A stretch of DNA of 64,000 nt from positions 1-64,000 of the IMG/VR virus record IMGVR_UViG_3300027899_001695, one strand, 5' to 3'. Below are positions 40,133 through 59,564 of this stretch, one piece after another. Each line of letters starts with the position of its first letter. Within the stretch, counting starts at the first letter, position 1. The position numbers were made by a program, and so were the translations under genes. Under the pieces are notes generated by a model. The model was not told the origin of the DNA. It did no database searches and saw nothing but the letters and a program-made list of their open reading frames with translations. The DNA comes from a virus.

Positions 40133-40450
40133 ATGGATAAGTATCTTGAATATCTTGTGACTCGTTTAATCGAGTGTATGAGTTTATCGGTTCCGAAGGA
40201 TAAATTGGACCAAGTATCGGCATTGATTACACGTCATGCTGCTGAATTGTTAGAACAAGTTAAAGCTTCTAAAGATGCTGAGTTTATTAAAGCCAAATTT
40301 TCCAATTTCATTAATAAAGTACTTAGTACTATAGAAGCACTTGATTTGGCAGAAACGCAGTATAAAGCTGTGCGTAAGTTAGTCTTATCAGAAATTCATG
40401 GCTGTTTGGATATGATAATAATAAATTTGGGGAAAAAAGAAGATGGATAA
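40133..40450 (+). CDS. Hypothetical helical protein
   Basis: A 105-residue, entirely helical protein with TAAGGAGGATTGTT upstream. It may be a coiled-coil scaffold or chaperone. It ends inside the next gene's start. No family recognised. Confidence 0.55.
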   Translation: MDKYLEYLVTRLIECMSLSVPKDKLDQVSALITRHAAELLEQVKASKDAEFIKAKFSNFINKVLSTIEALDLAETQYKAVRKLVLSEIHGCLDMIIINLGKKEDG

Positions 40451-42635
40451 TAATGAACGACCTGAAGACATGTTTATAAATGACCCAGCACAAGCGGAGG
40501 CTATGAAACTTAGTTCTCCGTATGTTGCTATGTTTGATGATTACATGAAGAAGGGTGAGGGATTTTATAAAGATATTCCACAAGTAGGGCAAGTACCAGA
40601 AGTTCCTGGATTAGGAGGTGTGGGTGGAGTACCAGAAATTCCTAATATGTTTAAACGTATGGAGAAATCTAGAGAGGTTAAACATTGGGAACAGAAGATA
40701 AGAAAGCAGGGATTATATAATGAATTGAGCCACATGAATGCCTCTCAATTGGATGGAATGATTAATCGTATTGAGAAGGCGATAGAAAATAAATCTACAA
40801 AGAGGGTTACTATGAAAAAACAAAAAGCAATGATTAAAAGCTTTTCTCCTGACTTGAGGAAAGCCTTATTGCGTAAAGGTATGTCTATAGATGATGTTAG
40901 GCATGTTGAAAATGAATTTAAGACTAATCTTCCTCCTGAAGCTATTAATATAATGAATAGTTATGTTGATACTGCGGTTAGGAAAGGTTGGGGCGGTGCT
41001 GCAGTTGGGGGTCTATTAGGAGCAGGTGGTGGCCCTCTTGGGATTGCTATTGGTGCTTATATTGGTCATAAATTAGGCGAAGCTGTTGGTAGAGGGCAAA
41101 TATCGTCTAAACAGGCTAAAGTAGCGAAAGAAGCAATGCTTCAGAGGTCACAGAATGAGTTAACAAGCCAAAAGATTATTGATAAGGCATTACAACAATA
41201 TTTAAATGGTACGGCTGCTGCAGGTGGCCCTGCTGCTCCGCCTAGTGTGTCACAACAAATACTGGGTAGAGTAATGGATAGATTCTTGCCACCTAAGACG
41301 GCTACTCCTTCTGCAGGTGCAGGACCGACTGCGAGTACTTCTGGTACTACAAGTGGTGCTGGGTCTGCTGCAGGTGCAAGTTCTAATACAAGTACTGGTG
41401 CTCCTCCGCCTCCTACTGCTGGTGCAGGAGCAGGAGCACCTTCTCCTTCTGCTAGTACAGGGGCACCTTCTGCTGGTGCAGGAGCAGGAGCACCTTCTCC
41501 TTCTGCTAGTACAGGGGCACCTCAGACTGGTGCTAGTGCTGGAGCAGCTCGTTGGCAAGCTAATGTTCAAGCAGGTTTGAAAAGGCAAGCTGCTGCACAC
41601 AAAGCAGCACAGACCAAAGCAAATAAGCCAAAACAGTCTACACAACAACCTAGTCAGCAACCTGTAGATGGGGGGGCACCCCCAGGTCCTAAGCCTGTTC
41701 TTGGTGGACGTAAACAAAAGAAAGTAGAGACACCACCTATAGAACCTGAAGTAACACAGTCAGAAAAAGATGCTTCTAAGAAAGGTAGAATACCTAGGAA
41801 ACCGAAGAAACCAATGGATGCAATGAGTGAAGCATCTGCGAGACTTGCTGCAGGAGAGGATGAGGATACTATCATGAAATGGATGTTAGATAATAATATG
41901 ACAGATGACCAAATTGGTCAAGTTATGGAAGAGAGAAATAAACAGGCAATGGGCAAAATGATGAAAGGAGAGGTGAATCCAATGAAACCACAATCACCTA
42001 TTGAATTAAAAAAGGCTATTTATAGTGTAAATAGGGCTATAGAGATGATAAAGAAAGAGGCTCCTTGGACTAAGGAAGACCCATCAATGTCTCCTGCTCA
42101 AGAACAATCTGGCGGAGGAGAAGAGAAAGATATTAAGTGGCTTTCTCATGCATTGGAAGGTGGTGGGCTCGATTCTTTATCTAAACACCCTGTAGTGGGA
42201 GAAAATATTGGGAATGCTGCTGATAAGGTAGGTTCCAAGTTCTTAGAGAAGATACAATCAATGGGTAAAGAAGGTAGTTTTGACCATGCTGACCCTAAAG
42301 CGATTGGTTTAGCTATTCTTGAATCTATTGATGGTATGGCCAATGATGCTGGTGATGAGAAGATAGGAAAAGCTTGGACAGGTGCAATGGCATCTCTTAT
42401 TGATAAATATGGTAAGAAAGTTGTTGCAGATGTTGCACAAGGTCTTGCTCAAGAAGGTGGACAAGGACAATTCCGTAAAGCAGTTGCTGAACCTATTGGT
42501 CCTACGCATTATCCTGCCAAAAATAAAAAAACGGCTAAAACAGATTTTGGTGGGCAATCTGAAGTATATGGTGATGGAGCCAATATGGATACAGAGTCAC
42601 TCACTGAAAATAGCAAGATGTTAGAAACTGAATAA
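40443..42635 (+). CDS. Long low-complexity internal head protein candidate
   Basis: A 730-residue protein. It has a helical N-terminal part, a Gly-rich amphipathic stretch (GWGGAAVGGLLGAGGGPLG, about 180-198, like a membrane-active segment), then a Gly/Ala/Pro/Ser-rich disordered tract (about 270-470) with an exact 54-base tandem repeat. The C-terminal part includes SPIELKKAIYSVNRAIEMI, a form of the amphipathic tag shared by proteins in this region. It begins the block of long charged proteins between portal and protease, and a role inside the capsid or as ejected cargo is inferred. No enzyme motif was seen. Confidence 0.6.
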   Translation: MDNNERPEDMFINDPAQAEAMKLSSPYVAMFDDYMKKGEGFYKDIPQVGQVPEVPGLGGVGGVPEIPNMFKRMEKSREVKHWEQKIRKQGLYNELSHMNASQLDGMINRIEKAIENKSTKRVTMKKQKAMIKSFSPDLRKALLRKGMSIDDVRHVENEFKTNLPPEAINIMNSYVDTAVRKGWGGAAVGGLLGAGGGPLGIAIGAYIGHKLGEAVGRGQISSKQAKVAKEAMLQRSQNELTSQKIIDKALQQYLNGTAAAGGPAAPPSVSQQILGRVMDRFLPPKTATPSAGAGPTASTSGTTSGAGSAAGASSNTSTGAPPPPTAGAGAGAPSPSASTGAPSAGAGAGAPSPSASTGAPQTGASAGAARWQANVQAGLKRQAAAHKAAQTKANKPKQSTQQPSQQPVDGGAPPGPKPVLGGRKQKKVETPPIEPEVTQSEKDASKKGRIPRKPKKPMDAMSEASARLAAGEDEDTIMKWMLDNNMTDDQIGQVMEERNKQAMGKMMKGEVNPMKPQSPIELKKAIYSVNRAIEMIKKEAPWTKEDPSMSPAQEQSGGGEEKDIKWLSHALEGGGLDSLSKHPVVGENIGNAADKVGSKFLEKIQSMGKEGSFDHADPKAIGLAILESIDGMANDAGDEKIGKAWTGAMASLIDKYGKKVVADVAQGLAQEGGQGQFRKAVAEPIGPTHYPAKNKKTAKTDFGGQSEVYGDGANMDTESLTENSKMLETE
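41416..41523 (+). repeat. 54-base tandem repeat in coding sequence
   Basis: Two copies of a 54-base unit (offset 54; second copy begins at 41470) encoding GAGAGAPSPSASTGAP plus two residues. The copies are identical or nearly so, indicating recent duplication by slippage in a disordered tract. Confidence 0.8.
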
Positions 42636-42644
42636 GAGGTAGTT

Positions 42645-42929
42645 ATGGAGCGATTGGCTTCCGAATATGACCCTAAGACAGGGCAGTTTACGTTTACAGT
42701 AGGCGATGAGTTAACGGCTGAGATATCTCCAGAACAATATGTGGAGTTTATATCTCAGTCAATGATGCTTGTCCAACACGTTGTAGAAAATTACTTTAAT
42801 GGGTCAATGAAGAGGTTTATCAAATCAACTGAGCATGCTCCCTCAATACCCATAGATTCGGCAGATTTAGTAGAAGACTTGGATAAATGGTTGAGACATA
42901 AATCAACACATATAGATTTTGGAGCATAA
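42645..42929 (+). CDS. Hypothetical protein
   Basis: A 94-residue acidic protein with GAGGTAGTT upstream. It begins with a beta hairpin (YDPKTGQFTFTVGDELTAEI) and continues helical. It is linked to the neighbouring long proteins. No family recognised. Confidence 0.55.
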   Translation: MERLASEYDPKTGQFTFTVGDELTAEISPEQYVEFISQSMMLVQHVVENYFNGSMKRFIKSTEHAPSIPIDSADLVEDLDKWLRHKSTHIDFGA

Positions 42930-42930
42930 T

Positions 42931-45900
42931 ATGACAGAAAGAACTATATTGTTGTCTAGAATTGAACAGATAATGAGACTTGGTAAAAAGAAAGAGCCTA
43001 CTGTTGCAGACTATTTAAGTCAGTTTGATATGGATCGGCTTATTGATACAAAGAATCCCGCTAATAATGATTATAGAAGAGAGTTTGTTAATAGTTTCTT
43101 TAAACATCTTCCTATAGATAGACGACCTATGCTATTACTAGGAAGGTCAGGTCCCCAGGTTCTAGCCTACATTAATACAGACTCCAGTTTAGCCAAAAGA
43201 CATGCCCCAGTTATGATAAGATATGAAGCTGCTATGGAAAGACAACTTCCTTTAGTTAGTGTGAAGTTATTTAATGATAAATTTAAAGATATGAGTCAAG
43301 TGGCCGCAAATTTGCAACCTTTTAGTGAAACTAAAGCAAATAATGTCAATAAAGAAGCTTTCATAAATAAGTGGGCAACTAGATTAATTTCTGATTTAAA
43401 AGCAGGAGAATTCGCACCTGATAAATTTATAGGACATGGTTTAGATGAACAAGAGTTAGCAAACCTTCCAACTAAAGTAAAACTTGTTCCAGGAAATAAG
43501 AAAGGAAAAGCAGTAAGAATCCCTAAAGAAGAACGAGAGCATCGACATTTATTACCTAAAGTTGATAAACCATTGGGAAGTGGAAAGCAACCTTTAACCA
43601 AATATCATCCTCGTGGAGCAAGTGTTCATAATCAAAAGTTATGGAGAGCTATACATCGTGCTTTACAAACACCAGAAGATATAAAGAAATTAAGTATGGA
43701 AGTAGTCAATGCTACTCCGTCTAATCAGAAGTTTTATAGTCCCTATATTGACCCTGAAACTGGGCAATTAAAAGATAGAGTTCCTAAAGATGTAGACCAA
43801 CAGTTTCATCAAGATATGAGAGACCTTATTGAGAAAAAGGGGCAAGAGTTTCATGATAGGTATATAATATCTCCAGAATATGTAGATGATGATGGTACAG
43901 TGCATCCTGCACATCCAGAGTATAATGGAAAAAAGGGGGATAAAAGCAATGCTGGAGAGTGGTCCAAGAAAACACCAGCGGATGTTAAAAGGGCATATTC
44001 CCAAGCTGAAGGAGAAATAACAGGACATCTAGAGACATATAAGGAAGATGAGAAGCTTAAAGAAGATGCAACTATAGATTCAGGAGAAGAGCCTCCCGTA
44101 ACTCCTTGGTATGAGCAACTTGGAGTAAAGGTACAACGAGAAGGTCAAGTAAAAAATGCAACAGGTATCTGGACAGATTCAAAAGGTAAGAAATACCGTC
44201 TTAAAGGCGATGAGGTTTATCATCACCCAAAAATTGGTGATATTATTGTACGAAATCTAAATGGAATGAGAACTCGTATTTTTGCTCCAGGTATAAATAG
44301 AACCTTTGTTAATAGTAAAGGTATCCAAGATATTATTAGGATGTATTTTGAACGTAACCTTCCGATACCTAAAGATTATAAACCTTATTTAATAGGGTAT
44401 GAGGATTGGAAACAGTTAGCAGTTTTAAGAGAAGAGATTTATCAAGATGATTTAAAAAAGGCAAAAACAGAGAAACAACGTCAGAAACTTACGACTGCTT
44501 ATGAAGATTGGAAAAAGAAATTTAGAGGAGTTAGTCTAAAAGCTAGAGAAGAAGATTCTAAAGAATGGGGAAACCAAGACTTAGAATCGCAGTTACTTAG
44601 AGATAATACAGACCCTAAGTTTGATATCAAGCTTAGAGAGTTTCAAGATTTACAACATGAAGGGAATTCAAATGAGATACAAAGAAAGGATTTCTATGAT
44701 GGTTTTACACCTGCTCAAAAGGACTTCTTTGACCAATTTAAGAAGAATCTTACTACTAAAATAAAAGCCCTTAAACAAAAATTTGATGCAGAACAAGACT
44801 TAAATATACCTAATCCAATGGATATTAATTTTAGTCCATTAGATGCAGGAGAGGCTAGACTTCCTTATATGAGTAATAAGGACCGTTTACAGTCTGATAG
44901 CGATAGAGAGTACCAAGCTCTTAAAGACAAAGCTGCTGAAAGTATAAAAAATACACCTGCCTTTCAAGAGTTCCATAAATGGTCTGCTTTACATGGAGAA
45001 TTAGCAAGTAAGGGGTACAAACATGTAGCATTAGATGATGCTGCAGAGGCTGCTTATGACAAAGCTTTATTAGATAGAACCGAAGCAGAAGAAAAGGCTG
45101 CGGAAAAGAAACAAAAAAATAGATACAAGAAGTACAAGGAAGCGGACGAAAATAAAAAAGGTGCTATAGGAACAACAGAAAGTAGCCAAGGAAAGAGTAA
45201 CCCTACACTTACTAAATTTGAAAAGCGTCAATTAGAATGGTTAAAAGCTAAAAAAGATATAGCAAGAACTGCGGTTAAACTTGAATATCATAAAGCTTTC
45301 GCTAAAATATTACAAGAAGCATCTCCTACTAAAGAACGTAGAATTTCGCATGTTGATAATTTACTAAGTGATGACGGTACTTATACATATGATGCAACTG
45401 TTGATTCAGATGGACAAATAACAGATATTAGGAATAAAAAGCAACTTAAGCCTAATCAAATAAAGGCTTTTAAAGAGGCCAATAGTCCATCTATGTACAA
45501 ACGTTATAATCCTGCAAGTGCTGCAGCTTATGATAAAGCTTATGCAGATAGAATGAAAAGTATGCAAACAAAAGATATTAAAGATATTAAATCAGATAGG
45601 GCAAAGAAAGTAGGCATAGAGCCTCTTTCAGATAACCCAGACCGTGGTTTTGGAGACCCTAGTCCTCATAGAGATTGGCAAGACAGATTAGATAGAGCTA
45701 TAACAGAAGCCATTAAAATTGGTACAGAAACAAAAGATTGGACAGAATTAAACCGATTATACGATGCTTTTCCAAACGAGAAGATGCATTATAGAAATAC
45801 TCAAGACCCACGCAGTAAAAGAAGTGGGGCATATGCAAAACGAGCAAATCTGGCGTTTGATAAGAAAAAACAAGAAGAAGCTGCAGCCAATGCTGCTAAA

Positions 45901-46728
45901 GCTGCTGCTAATGTACCTCCTCCACCTCCTCCAAAAGATAAAACTGCAGAACGAGATTCCGCTATTCGTTGGGAAATTGAAAGAGCCAAAGAAACTTCTA
46001 ATGCAAGCGCAAAAGAATTTGCTCTTGAAGCGAGTCAAAAAGGTATAAGAGACCCAAAAGAAAAACAAAAATATATTGATGATGGAATGGACCAGGCTTT
46101 TAATAGAGAGCTTATGTATATTGGAAAGAAGTTTGGTGTAATTATTACGCCCTCTGCGCCTATAAAAACTAAACCTGAGAAACCGATAAAATCGCCTGAA
46201 GGTAAGAGACGTGAAAAGGACCCTACTAGACCTTGGGTAGAAGAGAATAAAAATAAAGTAACTTATAAGATAGAGGAACTTCCACAAACTGTTAAAGAAC
46301 AAACAAAAGTTAAAGATAAAGCACGTATTAATGCTGGAATTAAACATCTTGAAGATAAAACAAAGAAGCTTACTGCTAAGAAAGTTGAAGCACCTGTTCC
46401 AGAAGAGGAGGTACCTGAGAAACCTAAAACTTGGCAAGAACGGCTAGCTACTATAAAGGCTGAACGAGCAAGTTCAGCACCTGCTTCTACCCATGTGGAA
46501 ACGAAAAAGAAAGAGACTACTTCAGAAGTTGGAGTCACTAAACAACCTAAAACTTGGCAAGAACGGTTAGCTACTATAAAGGCTGAACGAGCAACGGCAA
46601 CTCCTCCTATTCCCAAAGCTGAAAAAGGGCTGACATGGCAAGAAAGATTAGCTAATATAAAGGCTGAACGAGCAAAAAGTACTTCTAAGCAGACTTGGCA
46701 AGATAAGTTATCTACTATAGGGAATTAA
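42931..46728 (+). CDS. Giant charged structural protein with C-terminal repeats
   Basis: A 1265-residue protein from ATG 42931 (TTTGGAGCATAAT upstream). The N-terminus TILLSRIEQIMRLGKKKE is a variant of the amphipathic tag found across this region. A central part includes WTDSKGKKYRLKGDEVYHHP and long charged helices. The C-terminus contains four copies of a motif TWQERLATIKAERA (last copy degenerate) separated by Pro/Ala/Thr-rich linkers. The highly charged, Lys/Glu-rich composition suggests a DNA- or scaffold-associated internal capsid protein. No catalytic motif identified. Confidence 0.6.
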   Translation: MTERTILLSRIEQIMRLGKKKEPTVADYLSQFDMDRLIDTKNPANNDYRREFVNSFFKHLPIDRRPMLLLGRSGPQVLAYINTDSSLAKRHAPVMIRYEAAMERQLPLVSVKLFNDKFKDMSQVAANLQPFSETKANNVNKEAFINKWATRLISDLKAGEFAPDKFIGHGLDEQELANLPTKVKLVPGNKKGKAVRIPKEEREHRHLLPKVDKPLGSGKQPLTKYHPRGASVHNQKLWRAIHRALQTPEDIKKLSMEVVNATPSNQKFYSPYIDPETGQLKDRVPKDVDQQFHQDMRDLIEKKGQEFHDRYIISPEYVDDDGTVHPAHPEYNGKKGDKSNAGEWSKKTPADVKRAYSQAEGEITGHLETYKEDEKLKEDATIDSGEEPPVTPWYEQLGVKVQREGQVKNATGIWTDSKGKKYRLKGDEVYHHPKIGDIIVRNLNGMRTRIFAPGINRTFVNSKGIQDIIRMYFERNLPIPKDYKPYLIGYEDWKQLAVLREEIYQDDLKKAKTEKQRQKLTTAYEDWKKKFRGVSLKAREEDSKEWGNQDLESQLLRDNTDPKFDIKLREFQDLQHEGNSNEIQRKDFYDGFTPAQKDFFDQFKKNLTTKIKALKQKFDAEQDLNIPNPMDINFSPLDAGEARLPYMSNKDRLQSDSDREYQALKDKAAESIKNTPAFQEFHKWSALHGELASKGYKHVALDDAAEAAYDKALLDRTEAEEKAAEKKQKNRYKKYKEADENKKGAIGTTESSQGKSNPTLTKFEKRQLEWLKAKKDIARTAVKLEYHKAFAKILQEASPTKERRISHVDNLLSDDGTYTYDATVDSDGQITDIRNKKQLKPNQIKAFKEANSPSMYKRYNPASAAAYDKAYADRMKSMQTKDIKDIKSDRAKKVGIEPLSDNPDRGFGDPSPHRDWQDRLDRAITEAIKIGTETKDWTELNRLYDAFPNEKMHYRNTQDPRSKRSGAYAKRANLAFDKKKQEEAAANAAKAAANVPPPPPPKDKTAERDSAIRWEIERAKETSNASAKEFALEASQKGIRDPKEKQKYIDDGMDQAFNRELMYIGKKFGVIITPSAPIKTKPEKPIKSPEGKRREKDPTRPWVEENKNKVTYKIEELPQTVKEQTKVKDKARINAGIKHLEDKTKKLTAKKVEAPVPEEEVPEKPKTWQERLATIKAERASSAPASTHVETKKKETTSEVGVTKQPKTWQERLATIKAERATATPPIPKAEKGLTWQERLANIKAERAKSTSKQTWQDKLSTIGN
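46423..46725 (+). repeat. Four-copy coding repeat (TWQERLATIKAERA)
   Basis: Copies begin near 46423, 46546, 46633 and 46693. The first two are nearly identical at DNA level over about 47 bases. The third and fourth diverge (the last reads TWQDKLSTIGN). Unequal linkers between the copies suggest an array of short binding helices. Confidence 0.75.
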
Positions 46729-46730
46729 TA

Positions 46731-48236
46731 ATGGAAGAAGTAATGTATACATATAAGTCTGGGGAAAATGAGGTAACTTTACAGGAACAAAATGGTAAAT
46801 ATACGGTTATTACGAATGGAAGTCCTGTACTATCTACTTCTGTGTTCCCAGATGCTTTAAATAAGTACTATCGTGATATTTCTACTATTTCTGATGCCCA
46901 GCAAAGTGGTCATGATATGGCTATGACCTTATTTGGTAATGAGGTAGTAAAAATAAATAGAGTTATTATTCCTCGACTGGCTCAATTGGGCCATTTAAAG
47001 GAGTCTAGGTATGTTAAAATGCTAACAAAGCAGTTAGAAGATGTTATGAAGTTTGTACCGCCAAGAGAGGCAGGGGCATGGATTCCGTCTCCAAATGATG
47101 GTGATATGAATCAAGGCACAAATGAGATTAATTTACATCCTAGTAGAGAAAGCGGTTATAAAGTAAAGAAAGTTAAACTACGCCAAGCTGATACAGGTAT
47201 GCAACCCTATAATGAGTTTAATGATTTACCGCATTCCGAAGTAGAGAGGCCCACTAAGATATCTAATACATATCAACAGAAGGTTAAAACTAGAGAACAA
47301 AGACCTATTGAGGGAGATTACTTTGAACCCGCCTATTTAAGCAAGGAGTACCAATATAATACAGATTGGACTCCTGAAGAAGAAGCGTTTGCTAAGAAAT
47401 ATTATGAAGAAGAAAGCGGAGAAGGTAGCTGGGATAAGTTAGATGATTGGACTAAAGGAATTGAAATTGCTAGACCCACACACGAAAATATGACCAAAGA
47501 TGACGTTATAGGAACTTTAAGAGATAAATATGTTAAACCTGTTTCAAAAGATAAGGTATTAAATACAATACCTTATAAAAACTTACCTCCGCCTATTTTA
47601 AATATGCGTAAGTCTAGAGTAGCAAGAGATGATGCCTTTGATTTAGGCGAGAAGGTAGGTGTTGATTTTAATAAGGTAGGGTTTGATGATTGGATGGAAG
47701 GGTTAAAGATAGAGCATGAGCATAAAGATGTAGTGCATGATGACCATCTTATGATTGCTAAGATTGCGAATGCCCATCTTAAAGAAGACCCTAAGTATTA
47801 CACAAAGCTTAAGAAATATGTAGAAAAGAGTTTAAGAAAAGAAGCAGAGAAGATGACAGAAGGCGAACAAGCACATCAGAATATGGGATTGGAGAATAAA
47901 CAGCGTAATGGCAGGCCTCAACCACCTATTAGTGGTGGAAAGATGGAGAAAGCCGCATTTTCTCCAGATGCCCCAAAGGTTGTAACTGGCGAGACACAGG
48001 AACCTATTGAAATTCGTAAGGAGGGAATCGGTAGTTTTTCAATTGAAAATGCAGATTATAATCCTGAGATTGACAACAATGTAGGTCGTCCAAAGAAACT
48101 TGTTTTACGCCAACAACTGGAGGACGGAGGCGATGTGGAAGAAAATAAAGGAGAGTTCTTTAAGAACTCAAAGGATTTTTATTCATTGAAGTCTTGGATT
48201 AGTTCAATTATCGAGGAGAAACATGGCAGAGTATAA
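46731..48236 (+). CDS. Structural protein with DUF5661-like domain
   Basis: A 501-residue charged protein. Residues about 305-365 (VDFNKVGFDDWMEGLKIEHE, then IAKIANAHLKEDPKYYTKL) match the DUF5661 pattern of unknown function. The N-terminal 100 residues form a small alpha/beta domain. The rest is disordered, Pro/Glu/Lys-rich. The C-terminus (YSLKSWISSIIEEKH) resembles the amphipathic tag of neighbouring proteins. An internal head-protein role is inferred from location. Confidence 0.6.
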   Translation: MEEVMYTYKSGENEVTLQEQNGKYTVITNGSPVLSTSVFPDALNKYYRDISTISDAQQSGHDMAMTLFGNEVVKINRVIIPRLAQLGHLKESRYVKMLTKQLEDVMKFVPPREAGAWIPSPNDGDMNQGTNEINLHPSRESGYKVKKVKLRQADTGMQPYNEFNDLPHSEVERPTKISNTYQQKVKTREQRPIEGDYFEPAYLSKEYQYNTDWTPEEEAFAKKYYEEESGEGSWDKLDDWTKGIEIARPTHENMTKDDVIGTLRDKYVKPVSKDKVLNTIPYKNLPPPILNMRKSRVARDDAFDLGEKVGVDFNKVGFDDWMEGLKIEHEHKDVVHDDHLMIAKIANAHLKEDPKYYTKLKKYVEKSLRKEAEKMTEGEQAHQNMGLENKQRNGRPQPPISGGKMEKAAFSPDAPKVVTGETQEPIEIRKEGIGSFSIENADYNPEIDNNVGRPKKLVLRQQLEDGGDVEENKGEFFKNSKDFYSLKSWISSIIEEKHGRV

Positions 48237-51200
48237 GTGGCAAAGAAGAGAAAGGAAACAAAAAAAGAATAGAGAACGTATGCCTAAACATGGTAAGGCA
48301 CAGGCACAAATTTATTCTGATAGCTTAGAAAAGCGGGAAAAGGAGAAGAATAAATTGCTTGGTAGGATTGATAAAATGCTTATGAAGCAAACTCCTCTTG
48401 AAGACACTATGGGTAAGAATCTTCAAACTATAAAACCGCAACAGTTAGCAAAAGTAACTAATACAACTATACCTCAAGCAGGACAACAGATTAAACAGCA
48501 ACAAACCCAGAATAGGCAGGTAGGACAAAATGCTCCTCAGCAACCACCCGCACAGAGAAACATATCCTTTGGCCCTAATGGAGCAGACTTATTACCAAAT
48601 GAGATAAAACAACGTCTGGATAAGTTTAATAGTCAGGACCAACTTATGCAGATAAATGAGACTGTAAATCTTAATGCTAAGAATCCGCAAGATTATGAGA
48701 TGGCCAAGTATCTAGCACGGTCTGGTAGTCCAAAGGTGCAAACAATGGCATTGAATAAGCTATCAGCACAGGATTTAGATACAATGATACAACCAACGAG
48801 TCCTAATACAGATGCCGTAGCGATACTTGCTCAAAAGACTCAAAATCCTAGCTATATGCGTAGTATGACAAAACATACTTCTCCCCAAGTACGAATGAAT
48901 CTGTTAAAGAATCCGAATATAACTGACTTGACGATGAGTGAGATGTATGATGATAATGATGACCAGATACGGAATCGGATTGTAGGACAATCAACTAATC
49001 AAGAGCTATTACATTTATTCATTAGTGATAAGAATCCACAAATACGTGCTAGATTAGTAGATAAACTTGACCACGATGGTCTAAAGATTTTACTTACAGA
49101 CTCAGACCCTCATGTACAAGCAATGGCTAAAAAGAAGCTACAAGGTCGTTTTAGTAAAATGGAAAAGTCTGGCAACTTCCAGAAACCTAAACGCCCAATT
49201 TTTATTCAACAAGAGACAGATAGACTTGATAATAATCAGACGACCAGTATCTCTCCTGAGAGACTACCACACTTTAGTCATTTAGGAGATGTAGGTAGTA
49301 ATTCTGTTAATGGTAAGACTTATAATACTCCTTCCTTTAGCAACAAGTCTCTTATATTAAAAGAGATTACTCATTTTATAAAAAAAGCGGAAGGAGAGAT
49401 AGAACATAGGATGCTCAAACCTGAAGATATACAGGCTTGGATTGAGGACCAGATTAAAAGTGCTAAAGAAGAATATCCAGATATAGATATAAATGATATT
49501 AATAGTAAGAATCTGTCTCCTTTACATTCTCGTGTTATCAAACCTATTATATATGCAAAACAATTACTTGTAGATTACCCAGAGTTAAATGCAAAAGATA
49601 GAGCAAATATAACAGGCACCTTCAAAAATGGTAAATTAGAAGCGGTTCATTCAATAAGAGAAAGTGGTCCTTTTGGTTCTCATCTAAATGTGGTACTTTC
49701 TCATATTAAAAATGCTAATCCAAATAACCCAAATGCTTCTAAAGGTATGGGTAAGGCTGCTGCACGTAGAGCCATTGAAATTAGCCGTAATGGTGGAAAA
49801 ACTTTAACAATTAGTCCAGATACGAATGCTGCAGAATGGTGGCGTAAAAATGTAAAAGACCCTACGAATGGGATGATTACAATTAAACCTGCTGAATATG
49901 AGGGGGTGTTATCACGAATGGACACTCCTAAGATTGAAAATGAAATGGATGAAGAGTTTACATCCTATGCAGAACCTTTGAGAAAAGATAAGATAATGAA
50001 AGCTGACAAGCAGAAGACTTTCCCAATAGAGGGGGAACAGTTACCATTGCCAGATGTAGGACATGAGTATGATAAAGAAGCTACACAGTTTCCTGTAAGA
50101 TTGCCTACTAAAGCAAATTCGTATCATAATGCATTTGGTAGATACTATCAAGGTCCAGATGGGGGAAAAAGACGTCTTGTTCCTTTAGATGAGTTAATAG
50201 ATGCGCCAAAAACACATATGGCTACGAATTTAGGTATGACTGAAAGTGGACGATGGTATAGACATAGATTTCCTGATACAATGCAAGATGAAGCTGAACA
50301 ACATGAATCGAATAGAGAGTATGATAGAGAAGAGGAAAGACGTAGACTTCAACAAGAGACAGATGATGATGAAAGAGAAAGAGAATATGGTTATGATTCT
50401 GATAGAGATGATGATGAAGATATAACAGGAGATGAGGATTATAGTAGTAGTGCAAATCTACCAGAAACAGAACTACCAAATGGGGCTATTAAACGAGGTG
50501 ACCATGTGTTCCATAAAGCTAGAAATATACAGATAAATGATGAGGAGAATGAGAAGTTTTTAAGACAGGCCTCACAGGAATGGTCTCGTTATTCTAATTA
50601 CAATCCTTCAACAAGTGGTAAATATGGAGGTAGAGGGGGTCGAGGTGCTGCTAGTGTGAGCATGCTACAGGGGGTTCTCGGTTCTTATTTTAGAGATGTA
50701 CGTGCAAAAGAAGAGGACCCTAGTTATGAACCTTGGAATAAGTATATGTTTGTAACCTCTAAAAGAGGCACAAAGAAAAAGTTAGAAGGGGCGACTCGAT
50801 ATCAGATGGGAGATGGTAATATACATATTGAATATTTAGCGTCTTCTCCACGAAATGAGAAAGGTATGCCTAATAGATTAAATGGAACTGGTAAAAGAAT
50901 AATCTATAAACTTGCTAAGATGTTAGATAAGCAATCTAAAGTTCCTGGTGGGAATCAACTGCCTTATATACATCTAACCTATCTTCCAGATGCTGTTCCT
51001 TTTTATGAAAGGATAGGTTTTAAACATGATGGGTATGGTCTTACTTTAGATACTCAGGGCATTCGTAACTTGCTTAAAAATGTGCGTAAAGATGACAAAT
51101 CAGGTAGTCCTTTCTTTAGAAAGGATGCCGATGATTGGGATAATGGATGGGATGACCCTGATGATTATGCAGAAGACGAAGTTGTTAATAAAGCTGTAGG

Positions 51201-51348: not shown

Positions 51349-52019
51349 TGGATAGTAGAAATAAGATATTAGAAGATTTATATTTTCTTCTTGTTAAAGC
51401 AGAAGATGCGGAAGAAATGATTGAAGAAGAGGCAAAGCCTGTTAAACCAAAGACAGAAATGCAACATCATATTCTTGATAGAGTAAAACATTTTAGTAAG
51501 GAGATGGATAGAATTCTAAAAGAAGAACAGAACATACAGAGTTTCTTACAGGGTTACTCACGATTAGCTTTGTTGTCTAAGTCGTATACTACTGATGAGG
51601 TAGGCGACTTATATGAAACAGCTAAGAGAGTTAATCTCTTTAAAGAGTTTAATATTGCCGAACCTATGGAACAAACAAGGCTTGATAAGGTAATCTTTAT
51701 AGATAACATTGCTCATCATTTACATCAGTTCAAGGAACCTAATGGTGCAGCGGTGTATAAGCAATTAGATAAACTTGCAGATATATCAAAATCTGCGGGA
51801 GAAAAAGAAAGAGATGATAGGTTACTTATTCTTGATAATCCTATGAATTTAAGAAAATTAGCCAAGATGAATAATCTTGAGATAATACAGAAAGGAGCCA
51901 TGCTTGATAGAGGGAGTTCTTTCTGGAGACTATTTGAGAAAGGTCTAAAAGTAGGTGTAGAAAGAATGTCGGATACAGAATTAGTAATTCTTAGAGAATG
52001 GTTGTATTCGAAAGTTTAA
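51348..52019 (+). CDS. Helical protein with N-terminal tag
   Basis: A 223-residue protein whose ATG overlaps the previous stop. The N-terminus NKILEDLYFLLVKAEDAEE is a tag variant, followed by a Glu/Pro-rich linker and a mainly helical domain (FLQGYSRLALLSKSYTTDEV). Possibly an internal head protein whose tag is removed by the prohead protease. No family recognised. Confidence 0.58.
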   Translation: MDSRNKILEDLYFLLVKAEDAEEMIEEEAKPVKPKTEMQHHILDRVKHFSKEMDRILKEEQNIQSFLQGYSRLALLSKSYTTDEVGDLYETAKRVNLFKEFNIAEPMEQTRLDKVIFIDNIAHHLHQFKEPNGAAVYKQLDKLADISKSAGEKERDDRLLILDNPMNLRKLAKMNNLEIIQKGAMLDRGSSFWRLFEKGLKVGVERMSDTELVILREWLYSKV

Positions 52020-52072: not shown

Positions 52073-52849
52073 ATGTCACAAAGTGTATGGGATTCTGATT
52101 TTGGTGCTGTGTTTAAGCAAAGGTATGATATTCTTAAAGGAATAGATATAAAAAAAGGTGTCATGGGTGCTGTAGGTGGTGCAGTAGGCCATATGGTTGA
52201 CCCAACTGGTGTAGTTGGTCCTGCGATTGGTGGTGGTCTTGGTGCAGAGTTGGATAAATCGGAGAAAATGGAGAAAGAAAAGATAGATAAGACAGGTTAT
52301 ATGGATAATGAGTATAATAGATTAAATCCTATTGGTGGAGATAAACCTACTGCGACAGGGTATGAGCATGGTGATTCTCTACCGCCTAATCGGCCTCAAC
52401 CATATAATAGCCCACGTAGAAAACAAGATGTAAATGATGAAGATTTAGGTGATTTAAGAGTAGAGAATATGAATAAATCGCTTTATAAAGCTATTCGTTC
52501 TGTTGATAGGGTTCTTAAAGAACTTAGAGTCGTAGATACAGGTCTTAAAGGAGAACGGGTAGGAGAGATACGCCACGACTCCAATCCTAAAGGTAGTTCT
52601 GGTGGAGGTACAACTGCTCCTAGACCCAAAGAAAGAAAATTGCCGATAAAGAAAGAAGAAGAGTTTGCTATGAGTATGAATAAGTCACTTAATAAGTCTA
52701 TTAAGTCTGTTACTAAGATGCTTCATAAGCTTGATTCTTGTGGTGGTTCTACTGCTGGTTTAAATATTAAAAATGTTAAGGCAAAGAAGGATGGTGGAGG
52801 CGTATATCCTTCAAAAACTCCTCCGAAGCCTAAAACAAGGAAGGCATAA
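52073..52849 (+). CDS. Structural protein with two KSL/KSI tags
   Basis: A 258-residue protein. Residues about 20-62 are Gly/Val-rich (KKGVMGAVGGAVGHMVDP) and could insert in membranes. Two copies of the shared tag follow: MNKSLYKAIRSVDRVLKELR (about 133-152) and MNKSLNKSIKSVTKMLHKLD (about 202-221), each after a Pro/Asp-rich linker. Repetition within one protein argues the tag is a functional module. It probably resides inside the head. Confidence 0.6.
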   Translation: MSQSVWDSDFGAVFKQRYDILKGIDIKKGVMGAVGGAVGHMVDPTGVVGPAIGGGLGAELDKSEKMEKEKIDKTGYMDNEYNRLNPIGGDKPTATGYEHGDSLPPNRPQPYNSPRRKQDVNDEDLGDLRVENMNKSLYKAIRSVDRVLKELRVVDTGLKGERVGEIRHDSNPKGSSGGGTTAPRPKERKLPIKKEEEFAMSMNKSLNKSIKSVTKMLHKLDSCGGSTAGLNIKNVKAKKDGGGVYPSKTPPKPKTRKA

Positions 52850-52850: not shown

Positions 52851-53330
52851 ATGACTGCATGGTATAAAGAACCTAAGTATAACGGTGCTGGTATTATAGA
52901 GCAAATAGACTTAAAGAAAGCTATACCTGCTTTAGCTATGGCTGCCGCTCCTGTAGTTGCTGAAGCTGCAAAACCAGTTGCTCAAAATCTTGGGCAAAGA
53001 GCTTCAAAGCATATAGACAAAAAAGGCATTAATGTTCCTATAACAGGAGTTCCTATTGGACCTAGATTAAAAATTGGCGGGGATAAGAAAATGGAAAAAG
53101 AGCTTCCTACAGATGCTATGACGATGACTAATAAATCCTTAGTCAAATCAATTGACACCTTCCTAATGAGAAAGGGCATTCTTCAGAAGACTGCCAATAA
53201 GTCAGGGATGGCTCTTGGTTCGTATCAAAAATTGGGCGACCCAGTAAAGAGAATGGTAAACAATAGTGCCACCATTCAATCTCCAGATGTGTGGAGTGCT
53301 GGAAAGAAAACAACTAAAACAAAGGAATAA
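52851..53330 (+). CDS. Structural protein with one KSL/KSI tag
   Basis: A 159-residue protein from ATG 52851 (AAGGAAGGCATAAC upstream). The Ala/Pro-rich N-terminal half (LAMAAAPVVAEAAKPVAQN) may be membrane-active. MTNKSLVKSIDTFLMRKG at about 92-109 is the shared tag. It is coupled to the preceding and following tagged proteins. No enzyme motif. Confidence 0.58.
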   Translation: MTAWYKEPKYNGAGIIEQIDLKKAIPALAMAAAPVVAEAAKPVAQNLGQRASKHIDKKGINVPITGVPIGPRLKIGGDKKMEKELPTDAMTMTNKSLVKSIDTFLMRKGILQKTANKSGMALGSYQKLGDPVKRMVNNSATIQSPDVWSAGKKTTKTKE

Positions 53331-53332: not shown

Positions 53333-54775
53333 ATGACTGACTTAGATAGCATACGGTATAGGTTAGAATTACTATTAACCAAAGCTACACCTATGTCTGA
53401 ATATGATAGGATGATAAATGAACCAGACTTTGGTGCAGATATTGGTGGTATTCCTAACTTTTCTTCTTCTTCCGCAAAATCTAGAAAACCCAAAGCTCCT
53501 AAAATTCCAGTAGCGGAAGAGGGTGAAGTACAGCCGTATGTGTCTAATAGACAAAAGAAAGCAGAGAAGAGACGAAAAAGACAAGCAAAATTAGACGCAT
53601 TATTTGGTCAGTTTGTTGACCAAGAACAACAAGGGCTTCCTCCTAATCCTAAATTAAAAGGTCAAATAGACAAATATCTTAGAAGAATGTTTAAGGTGGA
53701 TGACTTAGATAAGGAATTAGCAGGAATGTCTCCTGAGGACCCTAATTATGCATCTACTCAAGATAAGAGAGACATGGCTCATAAGTTATGTGCAATTCGT
53801 GTTAATGCGGAGAAAGCAAAAGCCAGAACAAGTATGGGGCATAAAATGGAGAAAGCTTTATGGGGGGGAGACCCAAATGCTGTTCCAGAAGAACACCCCA
53901 ATCAAGCTAAACAAAGCCAACTTAACTTCTTTCCACAACATGAAAAAGCACCGCCTGTTAGACCCCAGTCAACAAAAGAAGGCCGAAGAGTATCAAGACG
54001 CCCTTTACGGAACTCGTTAATAAAGAGCATATTTAATTTTGGTAACATGCTTGAAAAAGCAGAAGGACCAAGAGACTATTCACAACCTGTCGATAGTGCT
54101 GAGGCATTTAAATATCGCAGGAATGTCCCCTCTGAACGAAGGGCTAATTACGAAGTTCTTAGAGAACAGGGTTTTACACCAGAAGAAGCTACTCGCTTAA
54201 AGGATTGGAAACCTGGGCCTTTAAGGACTATCATCCAGAACAAAGATAAACCCAATAGGGGGTTAGACCCTGAATGGATTGATGACCCACAACAGAAAAT
54301 GGATAAAGAGTTTGAGTTACTGGATGATTATAAAAATGCGGGAATAAAGAAAATTCCAGGAATGGAACCAATTGATGCAAATGAAGCACAAAGACTAAAT
54401 CAGTATTACCAACAAGTAGGTAAACCACTTATTCATGTACCTACACCAGAAGAATTTCAATCTCAAATGTTACAATACAAAGAAATGAAGAGAGAGGGTA
54501 AAGCACCCCCTATGTTTAACAAGGCATTAGCATATTTATTTGATTTAGATATCTCTAAAGCAGGAAATGCTATTAAGGAACTTGAAGACTTTATTAGAGA
54601 GTATGAAGCTACAATTAAATCAAGACCAAAGAACTGGTCACCAAAGGATATAGCTTCGCATACTCGTATGTTAAACAATGCTAAACAGCACTTAGAGGGC
54701 TACTATAAAAATAAACTTGTAGCTCCTGAAGCTCCTAAAATGCCCTTACAACAACAGTTACCTTTGGAGTATTAA
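53333..54775 (+). CDS. Structural protein with several tag variants
   Basis: A 480-residue charged protein with tag-like helices at the N-terminus (LDSIRYRLELLLTKATPMSE), at about 226-248 (RNSLIKSIFNFGNMLEKAEG) and about 394-410 (FNKALAYLFDLDISKAGN). Each lies beside a Pro-rich or charged linker, and some end in KAEG or KAT, which could be protease sites. The remainder is Lys/Glu/Pro/Gln-rich. A candidate internal head protein. Confidence 0.58.
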   Translation: MTDLDSIRYRLELLLTKATPMSEYDRMINEPDFGADIGGIPNFSSSSAKSRKPKAPKIPVAEEGEVQPYVSNRQKKAEKRRKRQAKLDALFGQFVDQEQQGLPPNPKLKGQIDKYLRRMFKVDDLDKELAGMSPEDPNYASTQDKRDMAHKLCAIRVNAEKAKARTSMGHKMEKALWGGDPNAVPEEHPNQAKQSQLNFFPQHEKAPPVRPQSTKEGRRVSRRPLRNSLIKSIFNFGNMLEKAEGPRDYSQPVDSAEAFKYRRNVPSERRANYEVLREQGFTPEEATRLKDWKPGPLRTIIQNKDKPNRGLDPEWIDDPQQKMDKEFELLDDYKNAGIKKIPGMEPIDANEAQRLNQYYQQVGKPLIHVPTPEEFQSQMLQYKEMKREGKAPPMFNKALAYLFDLDISKAGNAIKELEDFIREYEATIKSRPKNWSPKDIASHTRMLNNAKQHLEGYYKNKLVAPEAPKMPLQQQLPLEY

Positions 54776-54804
54776 TATGGAAGAAAGACTGATAGGAGAA
54801 TGTT

Positions 54805-55083: not shown

Positions 55084-55086
55084 AAT

Positions 55087-55455: not shown

Positions 55456-55456
55456 A

Positions 55457-55905: not shown

Positions 55906-56049
55906 ATGCCGTTTGGTCTATGTTGTTGTTTCTGGACTAACCTTGGGATGGGATTAGCATTGCTATTTCCTTTTCTTTCTGCCGCAATTTTTTATATAAC
56001 TAGTAAGTTCAAGAAACATGAATGTGAGGACGAAGATGCCTGCTGTTAG
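55906..56049 (+). CDS. Small membrane protein with cysteines
   Basis: A 47-residue protein that starts on the base after the previous stop. It has one hydrophobic helix (MGLALLFPFLSAAIFYI), CCC near the N-terminus and a Cys/acidic C-terminus (CEDEDACC). AAGGAAGATAAATAA precedes the ATG. Function unknown. Confidence 0.5.
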   Translation: MPFGLCCCFWTNLGMGLALLFPFLSAAIFYITSKFKKHECEDEDACC

Positions 56050-56269
56050 TCGTGCACAGCATAGATTTATGGGTTTAGTAGCTTCTGGTAAGAAGAAAGT
56101 TAAAGGGCTATCTAAAGAAGATGCAAAAGAGTACATTCGTGGGCAAAAACGAGAAAATCTACCAGAACGAATTGAGAAATTTGTGCGGGAAAAGAAAGAA
56201 AAGATGAATTTACCATATAATCAAGGAACGTTTGGAGTCTCCCAAGCAGGAGTAGGAGCAAGAATATGA
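56036..56269 (+). CDS. DUF3008-like small protein
   Basis: A 77-residue basic protein from ATG 56036 (GAGGACGAAG upstream). The N-terminus MPAVSRAQHRFMGLVASGKK followed by LSKEDAKEYIRG matches the DUF3008 pattern, a family of small phage and bacterial proteins of unknown function. It overlaps neighbours at both ends. Confidence 0.65.
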   Translation: MPAVSRAQHRFMGLVASGKKKVKGLSKEDAKEYIRGQKRENLPERIEKFVREKKEKMNLPYNQGTFGVSQAGVGARI

Positions 56270-57321
56270 TAAGAAAAGACTTAGGTAACTATATGCGTTG
56301 GAAAACAATCCAACAACAAGGACCTTGTGAAGGACAATTTGATGGAATATGCCAAGGACCGAAGGGTATTGATGTACCAATGAGGCAACTTGCACATCGT
56401 AGACCTAAAGATAGAGAGGATGCTGAAAGAAGACTTATGTCTATGAACCAAGCTCCCAATAAAAAACCAGGGCATAAACCTAGGTTATATGATTCCTTGA
56501 ATAGACCTCATGCGTATCGTCATTTATGCCCTACTTGCCATCTCCATCATGATAACCATATGTTTGATGAAGGCTATCAAGAGCCTAAATGGGTGCTGGA
56601 TAATAAGTTTAGGCAGCTTATTAGAGATAGAAATAAGAATAAACAAAAGATAAAAAGGCATGGTGGAATTGTTAAATCTATAAATGACTTTGTAAGAAAA
56701 TTTGATAATACTATTGACCCAAATGAGCCAAGGCAAACAAGGTATTTACATAATTTACCTTCTAGAGACACTCATATTAAATATGAAGACCCGTTTGACC
56801 CTGAAATTTATATAGAAGAAGAATCAGATGAGGAGTACGTTCCTGAAATGCACACCCAAAATACAAGATTGCCAATAGAAACAAAAAGATATAATAAGAT
56901 AATGGATAGAATAAGCCCTCATGGAAGTCAAAAGATATTGGATAAAATTGTGGGTAAAGAAGATATACCATATGCGAAATCATTATGTAAGTCTATTAAT
57001 CAATTTGTAAGAAAGTTTGATACTTCTTATCTACCACATGAAGGAACGGCTAAATATAAACCACAGAACGAAGCAAGAGCAAGAATAAATAACAAGCTTG
57101 GACCACACTCTATGTCCAATCGTAAGCAAGAAGTAAATCCAGCCTCTTCACCACCTATGGGGTTTGGACAAAAGACTAATCCTGAAGAGCATATAGTACC
57201 TAACTATGTACCAAAGGATAAGACCCATGCTTTCAAGTATCGTGGTAGGACATATGATGCAAGCAGAATGACACCCGAAGAGCTTTCAGACATATTATCA
57301 GAGATGGAGCAACAGATATAA
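56266..57321 (+). CDS. HNH-like zinc protein with KSI tags
   Basis: A 351-residue protein. The N-terminal 100 residues have HNH-like zinc ligands (CEGQFDGICQG, QLAHRRPKD, HLCPTCHLHHDNHM), resembling packaging-associated HNH proteins. Two copies of the shared tag follow: VKSINDFVRKFDNT (about 135-148) and CKSINQFVRKFDTS (about 241-254), each before a Pro/Arg/Glu-rich linker. It directly precedes the protease gene. It may be a nuclease carried in or assembled with the head. Catalytic activity is uncertain because the full HNH pattern is incomplete. Confidence 0.6.
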   Translation: MIRKDLGNYMRWKTIQQQGPCEGQFDGICQGPKGIDVPMRQLAHRRPKDREDAERRLMSMNQAPNKKPGHKPRLYDSLNRPHAYRHLCPTCHLHHDNHMFDEGYQEPKWVLDNKFRQLIRDRNKNKQKIKRHGGIVKSINDFVRKFDNTIDPNEPRQTRYLHNLPSRDTHIKYEDPFDPEIYIEEESDEEYVPEMHTQNTRLPIETKRYNKIMDRISPHGSQKILDKIVGKEDIPYAKSLCKSINQFVRKFDTSYLPHEGTAKYKPQNEARARINNKLGPHSMSNRKQEVNPASSPPMGFGQKTNPEEHIVPNYVPKDKTHAFKYRGRTYDASRMTPEELSDILSEMEQQI

Positions 57322-58775
57322 TGAAGAATATTCTTCGTGACGTAGAACAAGAAATTGAGAGACGTGGCATCCAAGAAGATGATGTTGCAGATATTGTACA
57401 AAGTGTGCCTGCATTAAAGAATCGGAGGATAGTGGGCGGTTATGCAAGTGTAATTATGGTAGATAGAGAAGGCCACAAGATTACCAAAGAAGCTTTAGTT
57501 GATGCTACAAAGAGATTTATGGCTGAGATTTATTATCGCCCCATAAATGTGTTTCATTGCTTGACGGGGGAAACTCAAATAAGAACTACCTCAGGTTATA
57601 AAAATATAGAAGCAATTAAAGTAGGAGATAAGGTTTATACTCATACTGGAAAGAGCCAAAAAGTAACTAAAACGATTATGCATGAAAACAATGGCTTGGC
57701 TTTAAGATTAGAATTAGAGAATGGTGAAGTTATTCGTGTAACAGACGAGCATCCTATCTTAACTAAACGTGGGTGGGTAAAAGCAGGTGACTTAACTACT
57801 CAAGATATTCTTCTGCATTTAGAATCGTCTGCTAAAGAATACCATGATAAAGTACGAGGAAAGTCTTTAGTAGGTATATTTGGTATAGAGAAAGCTAAAG
57901 AAGTGTTATTAAAAATGCGGGGAAAAAGAGAAAGTTATACTGTTACAGAAAAACATAATTCGCAACAAAGAAAAGGGCATACATGGCAAGAAGTATATGG
58001 TCATAATAAACCTGATTATGGTGGCTGTGTTGGAGAAAAGAACCCTCAATTTGGTAACAAGGGTAGAATAACTGGAGAAAAGAACCCTAACTGGAACAAT
58101 GGGGCTTCTCTTATAGCTTATGGAATAGGGTTTACTAAAGAATTAAAAGAAAATATACGAAAAGCGTGTGACAACAGATGCTTCTTATGTGGAGAACAAC
58201 CCAAATATAGTCTTTCAATACATCATATTGATTACAATAAGAAGAATAATCAAGAAGATAATTTAATTGCATTATGTAGAAAGTGCCACATGAAAGCACA
58301 TAATGAAGAACGATTGGCTATTAAGAACGGAACTAATATCAAGTCTATCGAGAAGTTTTGGTATACTGGAAAGGTGTATAATCTTGAAGTAGATATAGAC
58401 CACACATATGTAGGAAAAGGTATTATCTACCATAATTCAGATGTTACAGTTGGAAGGATACTTCCTAAGTGGGCAAACCCAAAAACAGGTCAGATAGTAG
58501 TAACGCATGTAGATGATACTGGATGGTATATAGTTGCAGAAATTCGTGATGATGTTGAGATTGCTGATAAGGTATGGGAAGAGATAGAAAAAGGAAACTT
58601 ACGAAGTTTCTCAATTGCAGGGTCTTCTAAAGATAAAACTGAGGGATATAAAGATGGGAAGTTTATGACTGAAATAACAAAGTTAGACATATACGAAACT
58701 ACGATTTGCGAAGAGCCCGTTTGCCCTATGGCTAAATTTGACTTCTTCTATAATCCTAACGAAACTATAATGTAA
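57321..58775 (+). CDS. Prohead protease (HK97 type, S78) with intein
   Basis: A 484-residue precursor. Without the intein it is 191 residues. N-terminal GGYASVIMVDREGHKITKEA is the typical first strand region. PINVFH carries the catalytic His, and RSFSIAGSS carries the nucleophile Ser. The intein sits immediately after the His (VFH/SDVTVGRI). The protease matures the procapsid, cleaving scaffold and internal proteins. Its position at the end of the tagged-protein block supports those proteins being substrates. Confidence 0.88.
   Translation: MKNILRDVEQEIERRGIQEDDVADIVQSVPALKNRRIVGGYASVIMVDREGHKITKEALVDATKRFMAEIYYRPINVFHCLTGETQIRTTSGYKNIEAIKVGDKVYTHTGKSQKVTKTIMHENNGLALRLELENGEVIRVTDEHPILTKRGWVKAGDLTTQDILLHLESSAKEYHDKVRGKSLVGIFGIEKAKEVLLKMRGKRESYTVTEKHNSQQRKGHTWQEVYGHNKPDYGGCVGEKNPQFGNKGRITGEKNPNWNNGASLIAYGIGFTKELKENIRKACDNRCFLCGEQPKYSLSIHHIDYNKKNNQEDNLIALCRKCHMKAHNEERLAIKNGTNIKSIEKFWYTGKVYNLEVDIDHTYVGKGIIYHNSDVTVGRILPKWANPKTGQIVVTHVDDTGWYIVAEIRDDVEIADKVWEEIEKGNLRSFSIAGSSKDKTEGYKDGKFMTEITKLDIYETTICEEPVCPMAKFDFFYNPNETIM
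57558..58436 (+). mobile_element. Intein of prohead protease, with HNH endonuclease
   Basis: 293 residues from CLTGETQIRTTSGYKNI to YVGKGIIYHN before Ser+1. Block B is VTDEHPILT. The endonuclease has NPNWNNGAS and an HNH core (CFLCGEQPKYSLSIHHIDYN, then LCRKCH). The end matches TerL intein 1 in IDHTYVGKGIIYHN-type residues and in DNA (both read AAAAGGTATTATCTA near the end). It blocks the protease active site until spliced. Confidence 0.9.
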
Positions 58776-58786
58776 GGAGAGTAAGA

Positions 58787-58975
58787 ATGACAGTAGCAAT
58801 AATATGGATGATATGTGTAATAATATTACAAGTAGTACTAACAGTATTAATATGGAACAATGATACAAGATTAACAAGACTTGAAAAGACCAAGAAATCT
58901 TCTCTTTTCCCCGCAAAATTAAAAACAAAAGGTAAGGTAATACCCTATGTCGCACCTATTAGAAAGAATAAATAG
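58787..58975 (+). CDS. Small single-pass membrane protein
   Basis: A 62-residue protein with TAAGGAGAGTAAGA upstream. An N-terminal membrane helix (VAIIWMICVIILQVVLTVLIW) precedes a basic, likely cytoplasmic tail. It may be an assembly or membrane anchor protein. Function unknown. An opposite-strand motif copy lies in it (CCGC at 58911). Confidence 0.52.
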   Translation: MTVAIIWMICVIILQVVLTVLIWNNDTRLTRLEKTKKSSLFPAKLKTKGKVIPYVAPIRKNK

Positions 58976-59564
58976 TTTAATTATTAAAGACGAGAAAACA
59001 AGAGGGCTAGTTACACCTAAAGATGTAATGGCCAAGCCTCATGCTATGGCTGGTAAAGTACGTAAGAAGCTTCGTAACGTAGAAGGAGGGCCACAAGACG
59101 AACCCATAAGTCCTACAAAAGAACGACATAGTGGAAAAAAGGGAAAAGTACCTAAGATAATCATGGAATGGGTAAGACGTAATGGTAAGATGTTTATGCG
59201 TAGGCGGACTATCATGGTAAATCCAGAAGAAGTTGAGTCACATGATAAAGTAGTAAAAGTATATTTGAACAAAAAGCATATAGATAACCCAAGATGGGTA
59301 GAGTTTGCGATGCAGGCCTATGCAAGAAATATTAAATTTACAAAGAAAATGGAAGGGTATGCAGTATGGCATGACCCTGAAGACCCTTTGCAGAAAATAG
59401 TATATAAGTCACATGATGATAAAAAGAAGACTGTACTGGTACATAATACAAAATTATCTGAAAAGGTATTATTGAGAGTATTTAATATTACGCAAAAAGA
59501 AAAACAAGAAGGCCTTGAAGAAGTCGAACAGCAACAAAAGAAACAAGGAATTATTCCTGAATAA
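58947..59564 (+). CDS. Basic protein with N-terminal tag-like helix
   Basis: A 205-residue, Lys/Arg-rich protein. MSHLLERINSLIIKDEKTRG is a variant of the shared tag. A basic linker (MAGKVRKKLRNVEGG) and a folded C-terminal domain (WVEFAMQAYARNIKFTKKM) follow. It is the last gene of the head block and may be a DNA-binding internal protein. It is followed by a terminator. No family recognised. Confidence 0.56.
   Translation: MSHLLERINSLIIKDEKTRGLVTPKDVMAKPHAMAGKVRKKLRNVEGGPQDEPISPTKERHSGKKGKVPKIIMEWVRRNGKMFMRRRTIMVNPEEVESHDKVVKVYLNKKHIDNPRWVEFAMQAYARNIKFTKKMEGYAVWHDPEDPLQKIVYKSHDDKKKTVLVHNTKLSEKVLLRVFNITQKEKQEGLEEVEQQQKKQGIIPE

Follow-up and report, generated by a model that had tools for sequence, protein, structure and literature searches.

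In virus record IMGVR_UViG_3300027899_001695, of whose 100,207 bases the first 64,000 are here called the window, a helix of 16 residues recurs in otherwise unrelated proteins encoded in a block between the portal gene and the prohead protease gene. It is confined to this block, turns up again in unrelated block proteins of related viruses and, among the conserved head proteins, best matches helices of the putative scaffold, all of which fits an address for the capsid interior. With about an even chance, it is an internal docking helix that imitates the scaffold and would bring cargo, or proteins destined for ejection, into the prohead.

Helix copies in the block

A 16-column profile was made from the 11 peptides listed in an earlier reading of this DNA (the original prediction), all of which are present where they had been placed or a few bases away, after aligning them on their central isoleucine. 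Each gene's copies were left out in turn, and the background comprised 23,935 sequence windows from the rest of the genome's proteome. The supported set consists of eight copies in six genes, named here by their first base: 48223, 52073 (two copies), 52851, 53333, 56266 (two copies) and, as a borderline case, 58947 (Table 1). The consensus is roughly (N/K)-S-L-x-K-S-I-x-x-F/V-h, where h is hydrophobic. Between none and one background window scored as well as the peptides at 54011, 56986, 52676, 52469 and 53130, and the peptide at 49341 was borderline, being equalled by two. The peptides at 42003, 42949 and 51360 were rejected, as 31, 71 and 23 background windows, respectively, scored as well and made them indistinguishable from background. 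The KSL..KSI helix of the original prediction is thus retained, but in about six genes instead of the "at least ten" to which it had been assigned.

When the supported peptides, with the own gene left out, were combined with five from relatives, the top five of the genome's 152 proteins were all in the block. The pattern KS[LI]..[SA]I, which was picked post hoc, occurred four times in the block against 0.02 expected and was absent elsewhere (0.13 expected). Pairwise scores between block proteins were barely above those of shuffles (33 pairs with a score of at least 35, compared to a mean of 19.5 and a maximum of 28), so that pair comparison alone would be insufficient proof of the helix. The codons vary widely between the copies, indicating that these are not recent duplicates, and the flanking sequences are unrelated.

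Recurrence in related viruses

The profile from the listed peptides was also run unchanged on the open reading frames (ORFs) of related viruses, none of which had been used in building it. A score above 12.6 was reached by 5 of the 34 post-portal block ORFs of the relatives and by none of their 143 other ORFs (Fisher 2e-4), the top matches all lying after the portal gene: NSLLVKRIDSFVQNLV and AKPLVKAINNFISKKM in locus L008 (= L016), NSLLVERIETFIKSVL and QESLLKTIDNFISKKM in L010, and KISIAKSLDNIIKKCE in L013. Since L008 and L010 carry orthologues, the five matches represent three families, for which we calculate a collapsed P of about 0.003; numbers are small and alignments shallow throughout. 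Shuffling within windows of 16, 25 or 50 residues, which keeps local composition, gave a mean of 0.2 matches and never five in 400, and column-permuted profiles had the same outcome. By this comparison, which had been set beforehand, the peptides are more alike than random amphipathic helices. The resemblance exceeds chance, and as far as sequence can tell the shared helix is real. In the reverse test, with a profile from the relatives' peptides, this genome's top six proteins were all in the block, a result that is partly circular because those peptides had been chosen for their likeness to the window's.

The tagged proteins of the relatives differ from those of the window. The first one of L008 has a PI3/PI4-kinase-like domain (E 5.5e-9), and this kinase-like gene carries the helix at residue 8 in L008 and at residue 3 in L010. 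One more short locus, L029, came to light when the protease, a tagged protein from a relative and a small conserved gene were used as further queries. The N-terminal helix of gene 58947 (MSHLLERINSLIIKDE) is close to NSLLVKRIDSFVQN of L008, both in proteins with an R..GK.F.R.RTIMV stretch.

Some further features of these loci are recorded here as observations in their own right. A second common stretch, VPKxIxExVxRxGKxFxRxRTIMV, stands near or after the helix in the block proteins L008:4483, L008:6075, L010:10348 and window 58947-59564. Two PI3/PI4-kinase-like (HipA-like) genes, L008:4483-5817 and L008:6075-7205, lie right after the portal gene, the first with the N-terminal shared helix; no match to them was found in named phages. 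A PI3/PI4-kinase- or HipA-like region and a Phage_Mu_F domain share one ORF adjoining the portal gene at L013:8526-10313, both matches being below or near the Pfam cut-offs.

Likeness to the scaffold

The protein whose gene directly precedes that of the major capsid protein (MCP) resembles a scaffold in its build. Its N-terminal helix (WGEMLDVLKDIGGYL) is conserved, the middle part is acidic, disordered and variable, and conservation returns in a helix KSLLKDIRSSL and in the C-terminal helices. An AlphaFold model from five sequences, used for helix positions only (mean predicted local distance difference test score, pLDDT, 57), has helices at residues 2-25 and 139-169 and no order at 45-135. 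Scores were averaged across aligned relatives for four families (portal, MCP, scaffold and a small conserved one), giving 948 windows, among which the profile derived from the listed peptides ranked the scaffold internal helix first (9.4), the scaffold N-terminal helix second (4.8) and the portal N-terminal helix third (4.6). Column-permuted profiles equalled the top scaffold score with P 0.001.

The N-terminal scaffold helix has a counterpart far from the head genes. A zinc-ribbon-like protein of 75 residues, encoded at 78343-78570 of the record (L002:15343-15570), starts with MSKKTDTWAEMLDVLKDIGGHLATAD, which is nearly the scaffold N-terminus, while its remainder is unrelated. Across 19 codons the two helices differ by 8 synonymous and 4 non-synonymous changes (proportions of synonymous and non-synonymous differences, pS 0.70 and pN 0.09; Fisher 9e-5), showing that selection has kept the helix since it was copied. 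At least once in this virus, then, a helix of the scaffold was added to a different protein and retained. The zinc-ribbon protein ends in LKKAEGEN.

Position of the copies and cleavage

The helices had been described as lying at protein ends or beside disordered linkers. The latter fits most copies, whose flanks have low FoldIndex values as for flexible linkers. The former does not: only the copy of 58947 is terminal, at residue 1, and the other seven supported ones are internal, at 36-79% of protein length. The hydrophobic residues are spaced 4-3-4, with a hydrophobic moment that is high in several copies and ordinary in several others.

Three copies are directly preceded by ATG codons. Internal starts yielding N-terminally tagged products were rejected, as these ATGs have no clear ribosome-binding site, unlike the genes' own starts. 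KAEG or hxKAE was likewise rejected as a protease site, being enriched in this genome but not in relatives; in the relatives' blocks KAEG was seen 0 times against 0.28 expected, and no conserved cleavage-like motif was found beside their helices. The internal positions and the missing KAE(G) signal disfavour a removable N-terminal tag of the T4 kind, and the proposal that the prohead protease removes the tag was not borne out.

Comparison with known systems

The closest known kind would be the capsid-targeting sequences (CTS). In T4 the CTS occupies the N-terminus, measures about 10-20 residues and is cut off (Mullaney and Black 1996, as given in PMC5694885 and PMC9958956), and the localisation signals of core proteins have been called mysterious (PMC9958956). 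As in T4, a short peptide is here common to otherwise different proteins in a virus that has a prohead protease; these proteins would be unrelated internal head proteins, to go by their position, and would presumably enter the prohead core. Unlike the T4 CTS, with its N-terminal location, seven of the eight copies lie within their proteins; they are sometimes doubled and they resemble the scaffold's own helices. No sequence relation to the T4 CTS is claimed, and it is the internal, scaffold-like form that would be new.

The head proteins of the giant phages SPN3US and phiKZ mostly have long N-terminal propeptides, cut after AXE, and two SPN3US proteins have an identical N-terminus (PMC5694885, PMC10052503). 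A set of putative internal or ejected head proteins alongside a prohead protease is shared with these phages, but such long N-terminal regions are absent here and no cleavage motif is supported.

A further parallel is Haloarcula virus HVTV-1 (Druskaviridae, Haloarcula tailed viruses), whose portal is about 24% identical and whose genes follow the same order of portal, large proteins, protease and MCP: portal gp112, gp113, gp114 (MuF-like), gp115 (zeta toxin and ADP-ribosyltransferase domains), gp116, protease gp119 and MCP gp120. This order suggests that these viruses habitually encode large proteins rich in domains between portal and protease. In the present virus the order is portal, large proteins, protease, scaffold and MCP; the HVTV-1-like module is contiguous only in part, as scaffold and MCP lie ~28 kb away from the protease. 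The scaffold, a separate gene here, is apparently fused to the protease in HVTV-1. In HVTV-1 no match to the KSLxKSI profile is conspicuous; its large proteins also hold short common modules, but of another kind, a helix and a GPxGxxYY hairpin. The helix and hairpin of gp116 are found again at another HVTV-1 site and in the zeta/ParB protein of HCTV-5.

In Haloarcula viruses, portal-protease block proteins (L015, HVTV-1 gp115 and gp116) repeatedly contain a helix with a hairpin-like stretch (APEGVQVQQGPSGAWFYY) after it. In L018:7533-8471, the gene immediately 5' of the portal gene, an N-terminal helix precedes a similar PPKGVQIKVGPKQGKYYL. In L021:3598-7329, from a farther relative of the present virus, the prohead protease lies within an ORF of 1243 residues that has an intein and a methyltransferase domain.

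Proposed function and alternatives

We envisage that portal, scaffold and MCP would assemble, with the prohead forming around the portal, and that proteins with one or two scaffold-like helices would be drawn into the scaffold core. The protease would then degrade or loosen the scaffold as DNA enters, and the cargo would remain in the head, probably to leave together with the DNA on ejection. Docking to the core of scaffold, packaging and ejection are all inferred steps, and the block proteins are taken as head proteins from their position. The idea of a capsid address in the original prediction is kept to the extent that the helix is confined to the block and best matches the scaffold helices; what finds no support is the T4-like tag cut off by the prohead protease.

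Several results weigh against this proposal. With a relatives-only profile the scaffold helix came second (P 0.12), a weaker match, so that the likeness to the scaffold helices is supported but not beyond doubt; in addition, this genome's own scaffold helices score within background as single sequences. Most copies are internal, unlike known capsid-targeting sequences, and some large block proteins have no helix. The KSLxKSI helix was not detected in L021, a farther relative (MCP 49% identical), so the helix belongs to the nearer clade. A search for virion proteomics of this virus or its relatives, HVTV-1 included, found none in the literature collection used.

The helix might instead dock something other than the scaffold, by binding the portal, pairing block proteins as a coiled coil or joining them in one ejected complex. 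This would suit the rank of the portal N-terminal helix (QNxSLVKxNT), third of the 948 family windows, as well as the 4-3-4 spacing, the high hydrophobic moment of several copies and the presence of two copies each in two proteins. We consider it unlikely, given that both scaffold helices outrank the portal in the window-trained profile and that gene 78343 reuses a scaffold helix on its own. That the copies have no addressing role and reflect only shared ancestry of head genes, or a shuffling of modules between them, agrees with the mosaic block proteins and with the other short modules that relatives share in the same block. Unrelated flanks, widely different codons and unrelated carriers in the relatives nevertheless suggest selection on the helix itself, which makes such an origin alone improbable. 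Quite improbable, too, in our view is a membrane-active role, in which the helix would be an amphipathic part of ejection proteins that form a channel through the host envelope. Glycine-rich hydrophobic stretches in 52073, in 40443 and in its L008 homologue, and the strong amphipathicity and positive charge of some copies, speak for it, but 53333 and 56266 carry copies without such stretches, and the ordinary hydrophobic moment of several copies indicates that a position-specific pattern is conserved and not amphipathicity.

A T4-like N-terminal capsid-targeting propeptide removed by the prohead protease appears very unlikely. The protease is adjacent, KAE(G) ends some copies and the helix is near-terminal in the kinase-like gene of the relatives; the window's supported copies are internal, though, and neither the internal ATGs nor the KAEG counts in the relatives come to its aid. 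Chance resemblance among amphipathic helices of charged proteins would explain the weak pairwise comparison and the three listed peptides at background, but it is largely refuted for the core six genes by the held-out profile test and the shuffles, and can be regarded as extremely improbable.

The scaffold-imitating docking helix can also be put in a broader form, which we offer more tentatively, as possible but somewhat doubtful. In it, a mobile helix would serve the whole clade as an internal address, and enzymes and large disordered proteins would be recruited to the virion by gaining it anywhere in their sequence, without proteolytic removal. The second scaffold helix would have been reused likewise on the distant zinc-ribbon protein.

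Capsid-targeting signals are known from a few bacterial phages, and their binding partner is unresolved even in T4. A helix common to cargo and scaffold suggests co-assembly with the scaffold core as a simple answer for this clade. It may provide a sequence handle for predicting the head-packed, injected proteins of uncultured archaeal viruses, and a candidate tag with which archaeal virus capsids could be loaded with proteins.

Genes of the block and genome context

The features are collected in Table 1. The starts of genes 52851 (peptide 53130) and 42931 (peptide 42949) were judged by their ribosome-binding sites. Among the domains of the cargo members proposed originally, DUF5661 was confirmed; for the GNAT-like and HNH-like members, Pfam and PDB sequence searches, wider ones included, found no GNAT or HNH domain. 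Gene 48223 had no match in the phage collection with which it was compared. An AlphaFold model of the 58947 protein from its single sequence was useless (mean pLDDT 40). The prohead protease of the original prediction is confirmed, its assignment being backed by PHROG (Table 1) and by Peptidase_S78, detected in relative L006.

Table 1 Helix copies, block genes and head genes (positions in the window unless given as of the record)
Feature	Position	Strand	Remarks
Portal protein with intein	35634-38411	+	PHROG portal E 7e-38; bounds block
First large block gene	40443-42635	+	Listed helix (42003) unsupported; relatives in L008 and L029
Large block gene	42931-46728	+	Listed helix (42949) unsupported; start set by ribosome-binding site
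Block gene with DUF5661 domain	46731-48236	+	E 4e-17; no helix copy
One-copy gene, 1041 residues	48223-51348	+	
Helix KSLILKEITHFIKKAE	49345-49392	+	Internal, residue 375 of 1041; 2/23,935 background as good; 15.2 with relatives added
Block gene	51348-52019	+	Listed helix (51360) unsupported
Two-copy gene	52073-52849	+	Also glycine-rich hydrophobic stretch
Helix NKSLYKAIRSVDRVLK	52472-52519	+	Copy 1 of gene 52073; leave-gene-out profile
Helix NKSLNKSIKSVTKMLH	52679-52726	+	Copy 2 of gene 52073; leave-gene-out and combined profiles
One-copy gene	52851-53330	+	Start moved from 52773; AAGGAAGG 5' of ATG
Helix NKSLVKSIDTFLMRKG	53130-53177	+	Internal; genome's best score with own gene left out
One-copy gene	53333-54775	+	
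Helix RNSLIKSIFNFGNMLE	54008-54055	+	Internal, residue 226 of 480; leave-gene-out and combined profiles
Possible further copy RENLPERIEKFVREKK	56150-56197	+	In ORF 56018-56269; 12.1 with combined profile
Two-copy gene	56266-57321	+	
Helix HGGIVKSINDFVRKFD	56659-56706	+	Copy 1 of gene 56266; 8 background windows as good; rests mainly on copy 2
Helix AKSLCKSINQFVRKFD	56974-57021	+	Copy 2 of gene 56266; leave-gene-out and combined profiles
Prohead protease with intein	57321-58775	+	PHROG head maturation protease; bounds block
Gene with N-terminal copy	58947-59564	+	Adjoins protease gene on 3' side
Helix MSHLLERINSLIIKDE	58947-58994	+	N-terminal; borderline, 4 background windows as good
Scaffold-like protein	87650-88429 of record		Directly before MCP gene
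Major capsid protein (MCP)	88457-89854 of record		

Nearly all genes are on the + strand. The nearest named records for portal and MCP are Haloarcula virus HVTV-1, a Methanomassiliicoccales virus and a Methanofastidiosa virus, and as these are viruses of archaea, an archaeal host is likely. The virus is probably an archaeal tailed virus. A scan of cellular genome contigs with portal and MCP for the host found no relative in the searched collection. Intein-like insertions were observed in the terminase (31639-35241; two), portal (35634-38411) and protease (57321-58775), and several relatives are without them at the same sites. The window also encodes an FtsZ/tubulin-family protein at 22788-23792 (Pfam Tubulin E 1.6e-10).

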